Shown piece after piece: positions 8,961 through 21,709 of a stretch of DNA of 37,159 bases (position 1 is its first letter; the number at the start of each line of letters is the position of its first letter). The stretch is from Akkermansia muciniphila (GTDB taxonomy: Bacteria; Verrucomicrobiota; Verrucomicrobiia; Opitutales; Opitutaceae), in assembly GCA_945898185.1 (NCBI GenBank), contig CAMDHP010000011.1, positions 1-37,159 on the forward strand, read 5' to 3'. Both the position numbers and the translations under genes were made by a program. Below the pieces are notes generated by a model. The model saw only the letters and a program-made list of their open reading frames with translations, was not told where the DNA came from and ran no database searches.

Positions 8961-9269
8961 ATGAAAGGCCAACGCATCCGCATCAAACTCAAGGGCTACG
9001 ACTATCGTGTTATCGATCAGTCCGCCCTCGAGATCGTCGAGACCGCCAAGCGCTCCGGCGCTCGTGTCTCCGGCCCAATTCCTCTTCCGACTCGCATCGA
9101 GAAGTTGACTGTCAACCGCTCCCCGCACGTCGACAAGAAGTCCATGGAGCAGTTTGAATCGCGCACTCACAAGCGCCTCATAGACATCATCGAACCCACC
9201 GCACAGACGGTTGATGAGCTCAAAAAGCTCAACCTTCCCTCCGGCGTGGATATCACAATCACGGTTTGA
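8961..9269 (+). CDS. rpsJ: 30S ribosomal protein S10
   Basis: A 102-residue S10 of normal length, in the head of the 30S subunit and also the NusE transcription antitermination partner. The conserved regions [47 protein letters not shown] and THKRLIDI are present. It starts the S10 operon but lies only 20 bases after fusA, so str and S10 genes are probably cotranscribed. The larger gap, of 109 bases, comes after it. Confidence 0.98.
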
Positions 9270-18818: not shown

Positions 18819-18870
18819 GTGCCGATCATGTCACGTCGCGGTTACATCACCGTAACTTAGCTCTTGATAC

Positions 18871-18915
18871 GGGCGGGTGAGTGCCTTTCGGCACCCCCGC
18901 CCATTCTCGTTTTTT
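18871..18915 (+). terminator. Hairpin with T-run before secY (attenuator or terminator)
   Basis: GGGCGGG (18871-18877) pairs with CCCGCCC (18896-18902), and inside it GTGCC (18881-18885) pairs with GGCAC (18890-18894) around TTTC. Six T residues follow 7 bases later (18910-18915), so it is not a perfect terminator. It lies between the rplO stop and the proposed secY start and argues against a secY start further upstream. Confidence 0.6.
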
Positions 18916-18938
18916 CCGCCTCCGATATTTTACCCAAC

Positions 18939-20441
18939 GTGTTCTCCGCCTTTACCAATTCGCTGAAGATTCCCGAGCTGCGCTCGCGGATCTTTTATAC
19001 TCTCGCGCTTCTCTTTGTAGCTCGCGTGGGCGCGCACATTCCCCTGCCCGGCCTTGACCCGAAGCCCCTTCAGCTCTTCTTCGCCGATCAGGCGGGCGGA
19101 GCCGGCGGCGCGGTCATCGGGCTCTATAATATGTTCACCGGCGGCGCCCTCTTGAAGGGTGCTGTGTTCGCACTCGGCATCATGCCTTACATCAGCGCAT
19201 CTATCATCTTTCAGTTGATGAGCGCCGTGGTCCCCGGTCTGAGCCGCCTCCAGCAAGAAGGCGAGGTTGGCCGCCAGAAGCTCACCCAATACACCCGCTA
19301 CGCGACGGTGCTAATTTGCTTGGTTCAGGGCGCCCTGCTTATCCTGACGCTCGAGAACCCTTCACGGCTCTTCCAGGGCTACGATGTCAACTCCTACGGT
19401 GCCATCGTCATCGCGGATCAGACCCTGTTTCTCTTAACCTCCATGGTCTTCCTCACCGCCGGGACCATGCTCATGATGTGGCTGGGCGAACAGATCACCG
19501 CCCGCGGTATTGGTAACGGGGTATCCTTGCTGATCACGATCGGCATCTTGGCGGACATCCCGGGCGCCGCCCACGCTCTTTGGCAGCTCGTTTTCGCCCC
19601 AGTGGGCGTTAACTCCCTCGGCATGCCGCAGCTGATCGTCATGCTCGCTTTGTTCATTATCGTCACGATGGGAATCATTGCGGTGGTGCAGGGGCAGCGT
19701 AAGATTCCGGTTCAATACGCCAAACGCGTGGTCGGCAACAAAGTGATGGGCGGGCAGAATTCGTTCCTCCCTCTCAAAGTAAACTACTCTGGCGTCATGC
19801 CCGTGATTTTCGCTAGCGCCATCTTGCTCTTTCCGCAGCAGATTCTCTCCCAACTTGGCTCGGCCTTTGACCTCAAGTTCCTCATCGAGTTTTCGAGCAA
19901 CCTTACCCCCGGTCACTGGGTTTATTACCTTACGATGGCGTTCCTGATTTTGTTTTTCAGCTATTTCTGGGTCTCGGTGATGTTCAAGCCCATCCAGATC
20001 GCTGACGACTTGAAAAAATACGGCGGCTACATCCCCGGTGTTCGTCCCGGCGCGCCAACGGCGCAGTTCTTGGATTTCGTGATGACCCGCCTCACCCTCG
20101 CTGGCGCCATTTTCCTGACAGTGATTGCCGTGTTCCCTGATTTGCTGACGAACTCGATCAACGTGCCTCATCGCATCGCGACTTTCTTCGGCGGCACCGG
20201 CATGCTCATCACCGTCGGCGTGATTCTCGACACGATGAAGCAGATCGAGACATTCCTTTTGCAGCGTCATTATGACGGCTTCCTCAAAAAGGGCCGCATT
20301 CGCGCCCGCAACAGCAACGTGGGTTCCGCGTTGAACGAAGCGGCAGACATGCAGACCGTCGGGACGCTTTGGCTGGTGCTCGGCACCATCTTCCTGATCG
20401 GCATCGCTGCGTGGGCGATCAAGTATTTTCAGGGAAATTGA
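18939..20441 (+). CDS. secY: Protein translocase subunit SecY
   Basis: The channel-forming subunit of the Sec translocon in the inner membrane. I chose GTG at 18939 because translation then begins VFSAFTNSLKIPELRSRIFYTL, the normal SecY N-terminus. An ATG at 18864 would place coding sequence across a hairpin and give an unrelated leader. From here the protein is 500 residues. The ten usual membrane helices are visible, with GVMPVIFASAILLFPQQI, KYGGYIPGVRPG and the cytosolic end LLQRHYDGFLKKGRIRAR. After that, about 49 extra residues include a further hydrophobic segment (GTLWLVLGTIFLIGIAAWAI), a possible 11th helix. No clear Shine-Dalgarno. Confidence 0.95.
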   Translation: MFSAFTNSLKIPELRSRIFYTLALLFVARVGAHIPLPGLDPKPLQLFFADQAGGAGGAVIGLYNMFTGGALLKGAVFALGIMPYISASIIFQLMSAVVPGLSRLQQEGEVGRQKLTQYTRYATVLICLVQGALLILTLENPSRLFQGYDVNSYGAIVIADQTLFLLTSMVFLTAGTMLMMWLGEQITARGIGNGVSLLITIGILADIPGAAHALWQLVFAPVGVNSLGMPQLIVMLALFIIVTMGIIAVVQGQRKIPVQYAKRVVGNKVMGGQNSFLPLKVNYSGVMPVIFASAILLFPQQILSQLGSAFDLKFLIEFSSNLTPGHWVYYLTMAFLILFFSYFWVSVMFKPIQIADDLKKYGGYIPGVRPGAPTAQFLDFVMTRLTLAGAIFLTVIAVFPDLLTNSINVPHRIATFFGGTGMLITVGVILDTMKQIETFLLQRHYDGFLKKGRIRARNSNVGSALNEAADMQTVGTLWLVLGTIFLIGIAAWAIKYFQGN

Positions 20442-20465
20442 AAAACCGGCTTTACACGCCGCACA

Positions 20466-20936
20466 GTGTCTGATTGGTCTTCAAATCTTCTCCAGATTGC
20501 GGCCGGCCGTTCCACCAAACTGCTGTTCCTCAATCAATCCGATACTCTCTCTGAGGAATGGATGAATTGGACTCGTTCTTTGCACATTGAGCACGTCTCT
20601 CCAGCCCACTTATTGAGGCAGGAGATTTGTCGCCGCTCGCCTTTGGGCCAAGCCGCCCAACTCGCGCAGCAGCGGGGGACCGACCTCCCCGGTGAGACAC
20701 TGGTATCGCTCATGCGACGCTGGTTTCACGCCCGCAAACCTGATGCGGGATTCGCCTTGTGCGGATTCCCGGCTACGTTGCTCCAAGCTCGTATTATCGC
20801 CGAATGGCTGGACGCTCGCGACGAAAGTTTTGATGTCGTCTTCGCCACTGCCCCCTTCCACGACGGGGCGCTCGCCGATTACTATCGCACCTTTGGGCTG
20901 CTTCAACCGCAGCCCCTCACCGCTCCTCTTCTATGA
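20466..20936 (+). CDS. Degenerate adenylate-kinase-like protein (probable pseudoenzyme)
   Basis: A 156-residue product starting with GTG, in the normal adk position between secY and map. It keeps the adenylate kinase outline: HVSPAHLLRQEI (43-54) matches hISTGDMLRxxI, SPLGQAAQLAQQRG (58-71) and LPGETLVSLM match the following helix, and GFALCGFPATLLQA (95-108) matches GFLLDGFPRTxxQA. The key residues are missing. The Walker A P-loop is replaced by FLNQSDTLSEE (21-31) with no GKGT lysine, DGFPR has become CGFPA so the catalytic Arg is gone, and the LID domain is absent; after DVVFATAP it resumes with GALADYY, like the PLxxYY end. The frame is open and overlaps map by ATGA, so it looks maintained. 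Confidence 0.85.
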   Translation: MSDWSSNLLQIAAGRSTKLLFLNQSDTLSEEWMNWTRSLHIEHVSPAHLLRQEICRRSPLGQAAQLAQQRGTDLPGETLVSLMRRWFHARKPDAGFALCGFPATLLQARIIAEWLDARDESFDVVFATAPFHDGALADYYRTFGLLQPQPLTAPLL

Positions 20937-21709
20937 TTCCGATCAAAGACGACTTCGGCATCGCACGAATGCGCGAGGCCTGCGCGGTTGCCGCCTCCGT
21001 CCTTCATAATTTGAAGGCTCACGTGAAGCCGGGTGTGACGACCTACGACTTGGATCAATTGGCAAAGACGCTGATTGCCGGACATGGCGCCAAGAGCGCT
21101 TGTTTCGGCTATCAGCTTGGCGATCGCCGCTTCCCCGGCCACGCCTGCATCTCGGTTAACGAAGAGGTCGTTCATGGCATCGGTTCACTGAAGCGCGTTT
21201 TGTGCGACGGTGATATCGTAGCGCTGGATATCGTCATCGCCTTCAACGGCTACATTGGCGATAATGCCACCACCGTCCCCGTCGGCGCGATCTCCCCCCG
21301 AGTTCAAGAACTCCTGACCGTTTCACGTCAGGCACTTGACTTGGGTGTTGCCCAGGCCCGCGTCGGTAACCGAATCGGCGATATCTCCCACGCGATCCAG
21401 CACCACTGCGAGAAGCATGGTTTTGGCATCGTTCGCGAAATGGTCGGCCACGGCGTAGGCGTCGCGATGCACGAGGAGCCGCAGATTCCCAACTACGGTC
21501 GCAAGGGTGCCGGGGCCAAAATCTACCCCGGTATGACCCTCGCCATCGAGCCCATGGTCAATCTCGGCACCTATAAAACCAAGACGCTCTCAGATGGTTG
21601 GACTATCGTCACCGCCGACGCCGCTCCTTCCGCTCACTTCGAGTTCACCGTCCTCACCCGCGAGGAGGGCCCCGAAGTTCTCACGGTTCCTCCTACTGGC
21701 ACGCTTTGA
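20933..21709 (+). CDS. map: Methionine aminopeptidase, type I
   Basis: A 258-residue metalloprotease that removes the initiator Met from nascent proteins in the cytosol. Ligand and catalytic residues are all visible: His81 (NEEVVHGIG), Asp99 and Asp110 (DIVALDIVIAFNGYIGDNATT), the His in GHGVGVAMHEEPQIPNY, the Glu in LAIEPMV and the Glu in HFEFTVL. It lacks the N-terminal zinc/SH3-binding extension seen in some forms. The start overlaps the preceding stop (ATGA), indicating coupling. infA and rpmJ, often next, are absent. Confidence 0.97.
   Translation: MIPIKDDFGIARMREACAVAASVLHNLKAHVKPGVTTYDLDQLAKTLIAGHGAKSACFGYQLGDRRFPGHACISVNEEVVHGIGSLKRVLCDGDIVALDIVIAFNGYIGDNATTVPVGAISPRVQELLTVSRQALDLGVAQARVGNRIGDISHAIQHHCEKHGFGIVREMVGHGVGVAMHEEPQIPNYGRKGAGAKIYPGMTLAIEPMVNLGTYKTKTLSDGWTIVTADAAPSAHFEFTVLTREEGPEVLTVPPTGTL

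Follow-up and report, generated by a model that had tools for sequence, protein, structure and literature searches.

The DNA analysed here (the window, 37,159 nt of contig CAMDHP010000011.1) contains a single cluster of about 19 kb, rpsL-rpsG-fusA-rpsJ-...-secY-pAdk-map-rpsM-rpsK-rpsD-rpoA-rplQ, in which gene names were assigned by inspection of the sequences; rpsJ, which encodes S10, is found at nt 8961. The gene secY (nt 18864–20441 from the first TTG, the true start being probably near 18936; + strand, as are all features below) is followed by an ORF denoted pAdk (pseudo-adenylate kinase, nt 20466–20936) and then by map (methionine aminopeptidase, nt 20933–21709), after which come rpsM, rpsK, rpsD, rpoA and rplQ. 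The ORF starts with GTG at nt 20466 and ends with TGA at 20934–20936, giving 156 codons with no internal stop, and its end shares the sequence ATGA (at nt 20933) with the start of map, so the open frame and the overlap are as originally described. A conserved hexamer, CTTTAC (nt 20450–20455), precedes the start of pAdk; it occurs in 76 of 80 relatives, 116–131 nt upstream of the boxA-like motif described below. The same hexamer is over-represented across the window (19 copies, 8.6 expected).

The original prediction recognised the order of adenylate kinase motifs in this ORF, and this is supported by matches to Pfam ADK (PF00406; limited to residues 36–127, E 1.9e-10), by NCBIfam and PDB matches over the same part, nearly all of them to adenylate kinases, and by the 'PLxxYY-like' end, ADYYRTFGLL. 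Structure prediction, which had been suggested as a check, gave an AlphaFold2 model (pLDDT 86) with the Adk core fold, for which the best Foldseek matches are all NMP kinases. Alignment of orthologues likewise confirms the catalytic losses that had been noted. The Walker A P-loop, GxPGxGKGT, is absent in the aligned orthologues (the window reads FLNQSDTLSEE), and DGFPR has become CGFPA, removing the equivalents of Asp84 and Arg88; the arginine is replaced by alanine in 106 of 108 aligned orthologues, while the aspartate position is occupied by T, E, S, A or C. The LID domain with its catalytic arginines is deleted, and the C-terminal strand, the last part of the fold, is also missing. Compared with bacterial adenylate kinases (PF00406), pAdk shares the genomic slot, the core fold and the sequence of the NMP-binding and core region, but lacks the P-loop, Asp84, Arg88, the LID and the LID arginines. 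These comparisons support the view that pAdk is probably a catalytically dead relative of Adk, maintained by selection in the adk slot.

A scan of a genome collection returned 163 relatives, of which 80 were kept for neighbour counts; among these, secY lies upstream of pAdk in 80/80 and map downstream in 79/80. In a search across the family, 127 of 150 Opitutaceae genomes (37 of 40 genera) gave a match, and since about seven matches are other ADK proteins, some 120 of the 150 genomes carry the slot gene. Conservation of pAdk in this slot is far beyond chance, and the gene is fixed across Opitutaceae. The nearest named genome is that of Verrucomicrobia bacterium IMCC26134 (81% identity). Synonymous divergence of secY (nt 18936–20441) between that strain and the window is about 2.4, much above that of map, rpsM or pAdk. 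Two public MAG contigs titled Akkermansia muciniphila (L093, L095) carry the Opitutaceae pAdk locus and are probably misnamed. Four genera of the same family (g9, g13, g20 and g127) are without pAdk, and without the RNA described below, and have map away from secY. The correlated loss of pAdk and of map linkage was considered as a clue to function, and dropped, because these genera branch apart, as a clade of their own, in the map tree, and the displacement of map therefore tells little about function.

That the protein is kept by selection, as had been proposed from the open frame, is borne out by comparison of orthologues: pN/pS is 0.22 for residues 108–127 (p 6e-24, 27 independent pairs) and 0.34 for residues 136–147, both downstream of the RNA. 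What had not been foreseen is that an RNA lying within the ORF is the target of a large share of the selection.

In other parts of the phylum, the gene directly 5' of map is a canonical adk in 30/30 loci, and the full order rplO-secY-adk-map is found in the same class (L221–L223); in most other Opitutales families secY leads straight into map. A sister family within Opitutales, f61, has an intact Adk in the slot (three genomes, G307, G322 and G334), complete with GxPGAGKGT, DGFPRT and LID, and this protein already carries the KWFWxRK and FDEWxExR segments of pAdk. Genome G194 has a full-length dead Adk that retains the LID but has lost the P-loop (GPQGALHRR) and the arginines (GFPEN), while G024, G027 and G200 carry truncated intermediates. 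In the map tree, the genomes with the RNA cluster together (95/84), joined next by G024 and then by G194 and G027; G200 is without a place in this tree. With an intact Adk in the sister family and intermediates in basal genomes, stepwise descent is visible, and pAdk descends from the slot adk through a graded series from the three f61 genomes by way of G194 and G024 to the family. The possibility raised at the outset, that relatives have a normal P-loop here and this copy is merely decaying, fails within Opitutaceae; the intact slot Adk of f61 does exist, and gives the ancestry.

A true adk had been predicted elsewhere in the genome, and a candidate was found. The genome to which the window belongs has one further ADK match, a divergent P-loop protein of about 420 aa on contig C80, with GAPGSGKGT and DGFPRT and with arginines that align with catalytic positions. 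The protein has homologues throughout the order, and complete genomes, G010 and G018 among them, contain no other ADK protein besides it and the slot gene; this kinase would presumably supply adenylate kinase activity. It also appears to be the sole P-loop ADK in many complete Opitutales genomes. This kinase (C80:6431–6700) and its homologues L228, L233 and L234 have a conserved C-terminal part of about 130 aa, which has no Pfam match. A tandem double-ADK protein of about 415–510 aa is present in several Opitutaceae genera (L031, L032, L034–L038, L040); in its second domain, GYPGSGRGS replaces the P-loop lysine motif.

Much of what is conserved in pAdk is its nucleotide sequence. Among its invariant residues, 14 of 33 use one frozen codon, compared with 0/93 in map, 2/245 in secY and 2/68 in rpsM at the same loci. 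The frozen codons fall in blocks (CGT TCT TTG; GAG CAC GTC TCT; GAG ATT; AAA CCY GAT GCG; CCG GCT ACG YTG CTC CAA), within which synonymous divergence is halved (pS 0.105 and 0.124, against about 0.25 outside; 27 independent pairs). An antisense-coding or second reading frame was rejected by inspection, since all three codon positions are frozen and an overlapping frame is no explanation for this. The strongly conserved residues were at first taken to mark a protein interface, a view given up for those inside the blocks. The alanine that replaces the catalytic arginine itself sits in a frozen block, CCGGCTACG; several apparent signature residues of the protein, this alanine included, are held by RNA.

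Taken together, the blocks form a sense-strand RNA of about 210 nt, made up of a boxA and four helical elements: one that closes the structure, a hairpin showing compensatory changes, and two others. The boxA-like motif (nt 20575–20584) reads GTTCTTTGCA, in relatives mostly GTTCTTTGAA, and its codons are frozen in more than 80 relatives. In the closing helix, P0, the 5' strand GAGCACGU (nt 20589–20596) pairs with ACGYUGCUC (nt 20775–20783, Y bulged), as indicated by frozen codons, pair counts and folding; it is paired in 75/75 sequences, and invariant. Hairpin P1 (nt 20598–20625) has the form UCUCCxGCC...GGCxGGAGA, and five of its nine pairs have changed on both sides. P2 (nt 20626–20738) joins UUU (20626–20628) to AAA (20736–20738) and nt 20631–20632 to 20733–20734, enclosing a variable insert; its pairs are invariant, so the evidence for it is weaker than for P1. 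The joining sequence AACCYGAUG (nt 20737–20745) covers the frozen codons of K91, D93 and A94 and is retained in G225, where the ORF is broken. P4 (nt 20746–20771) has an invariant CGGG/CCCG stem and a varying extension (20755–20756/20763–20764), in which pair 20755:20764 is UA in 35 sequences, CG in 20, UG in 17 and other in 3.

Across 75 sequences, 95.0% of cells pair, compared with 92.1% after shuffling and at most 55% when the structure is slid along the alignment; the covariation score is 0.103, against 0.062 for shuffles (0/500) and no more than 0.062 for slid structures, and seven pairs change on both sides. Compensatory changes above control are confined to P1 and to the extension of P4; P0 is constant, as are P2 and P4 almost throughout, and such pairs are uninformative for covariation. 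When folded without constraints, the window and two loci with broken ORFs all yield P0 and P1 (z -2.9, -2.2 and -3.4). The G-U pairs place the RNA on the sense strand; an antisense RNA has a similar alifold energy, yet the G-U pattern favours sense. Rfam gave no match up to E 10 in nt 20380–21000, the alpha-operon leader included, and none at the gathering threshold across the window. A covariance-model search found a single copy in each genome, invariably in the slot, with no free-standing copies and no RNA blocks outside the family; three weaker matches in f61 proved to be intact adk genes.

The same invariant blocks, by themselves, would fit DNA or RNA alike, and CTTTAC together with GTTCTTTG could be promoter-like. 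A DNA signal (a promoter or protein site), or the source of a processed trans-acting sRNA, is nevertheless quite improbable, as P1 covaries and has been re-formed with new sequence where the ORF is broken, and the G-U pairs suit the sense strand only.

Nature has separated the RNA from the protein in two genomes, G225 and G215, in which pAdk is wrecked and its core motifs lost (with a frameshift and a stop in G215), while the ORF is intact in their respective sister genomes, G163 and G032. In G225, 65 of 77 element sites are kept but only 2 of 24 protein-only sites (Fisher 1e-11), and in G215 the figures are 64/77 and 13/24 (Fisher 0.006). Both loci (L217, L218) have P1 rebuilt with different bases. 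Their covariance-model scores are 85 and 133 bits, both being among the sequences from which the model was built. This comparative evidence shows that the predicted RNA is selected independently of the protein, and the case is firmest for the core of the RNA and for its separation from the protein.

A pseudoenzyme acting only as a protein, for instance in a regulatory partnership with SecY, MetAP, the ribosome or the kinase of about 420 aa, would be consistent with the conserved fold, the purifying selection and the fixed slot, and would make the nucleotide conservation incidental. It is strongly disfavoured as the whole story, and very improbable, given codons frozen at specific positions here and not in map, secY or rpsM, RNA blocks that outlive the protein in G225 and G215, and compensatory base changes within a stretch of variable residues. 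The converse, an RNA locus whose ORF is a passenger kept open just for the passage of ribosomes to map, gains from the two genomes that retain the RNA without a meaningful protein and from the coupling suggested by the ATGA overlap. This too is improbable, if less so, as it conflicts with the low pN/pS of residues 108–127 and 136–147, which lie outside the RNA, with an ORF that is intact in nearly all genomes, and with the good predicted fold. The RNA blocks, the selection on protein downstream of them and the confident fold together indicate that the locus is very probably dual-coding.

As to what the RNA does, the 8-mer GTTCTTTG at its 5' side is the boxA of Opitutaceae rRNA operons. The form GTTCTTTGA is identical in the rrn operons of two Opitutaceae genera (G016, G024), before the 23S rRNA and in the rrn leader; the comparison is based on these two genera because most rRNA operons were missed by the genome search. 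The copies read GTTCTTTGAAAG before the G016 23S, CGTTCTTTGACAG in G024 and GCTCTTTGAAA in the G016 16S leader, and the boxA of the window genus, GTTCTTTGCACA, is one base (the ninth) off the rrn form. Two other Opitutales families (G046/L068, G051/L081) also have the 8-mer, in a short spacer between secY and map with no adk remnant. In gammaproteobacteria, boxA-dependent regulation has been reported outside rrn; rpsJ is among the predicted targets, and of the functions linked to boxA about a quarter are tied to translation (PMC5725501).

The most economical reading is of a cis element that loads NusB-S10. The slot adk lost its catalytic parts in Opitutaceae, leaving an Adk-fold protein of 145–175 aa still under purifying selection. 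The RNA would be a cis-acting part of the long str-S10-spc-alpha transcript. In this reading NusB-S10 is predicted to bind boxA ahead of the alpha block, and the neighbouring fold, by itself or together with another factor, may alter elongation, termination or translation of map-rpsM-rpsK-rpsD-rpoA-rplQ. The element could provide antitermination or feedback, possibly by S10, the gene for which lies in the same cluster. The open ORF would convey ribosomes to map through the ATGA overlap, and its product may have a further, non-catalytic role. Against this best explanation, an ordinary boxA works without a 200-nt fold, and translating ribosomes would unfold the RNA, so that timing or weak translation has to be assumed.

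The main rival is a feedback site for a ribosomal protein, such as S4 from the downstream rpsD. Ribosomal proteins commonly bind their own mRNA, and the RNA is placed before rpsM-rpsK-rpsD. This is unlikely, although it deserves more weight than the other alternatives: the Rfam comparison includes the alpha-operon leader and gave no match, similarity of the RNA to a 16S rRNA operon (rRNA mimicry) is not above chance, and the boxA points to NusB-S10 instead. A Nus-type mechanism, judged from sequence, comes close to an even call. The combined statement, of a dead kinase ORF overlapping a cis-acting, Nus-type RNA upstream of the alpha block, is favoured with some confidence. The fuller history, in which adk died within the ribosomal operon, its codons were recruited into a new class of boxA-linked RNA controlling the alpha block of ribosomal protein and RNA polymerase genes, and the dead protein was kept, possibly as partner of the RNA, is plausible but more tentative than either of these.

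The locus would be a clear bacterial example of how an enzyme gene becomes a gene for both protein and RNA, with its stages still living, from an intact Adk through a dead Adk of full length and a truncated dead one accompanied by the RNA to the RNA with a broken ORF. The most conserved bacterial operon would gain an unlisted structured RNA, and alpha-block control in Verrucomicrobiota would be linked to Nus factors; the locus also cautions that 'invariant residues' of pseudoenzymes can reflect RNA constraints. In being a cis RNA within a ribosomal protein operon, the element resembles ribosomal protein mRNA leaders such as the S4 site of the alpha operon, but it has no Rfam match, is embedded in an ORF and lies two genes upstream of rpsM. 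The processive antitermination RNAs lambda nut, put and EAR employ structured RNA and/or boxA and act on long operons; the pAdk RNA, its function putative, is likened to them by structure and boxA, their sequences having been compared via Rfam only. With rrn boxA and the suhB and rpsJ leaders it shares a boxA like that of the family's own rrn operons, and a translation-related operon; it differs in having its boxA within a coding sequence and joined to a conserved fold of about 210 nt, and in its place inside the operon, before the alpha block.
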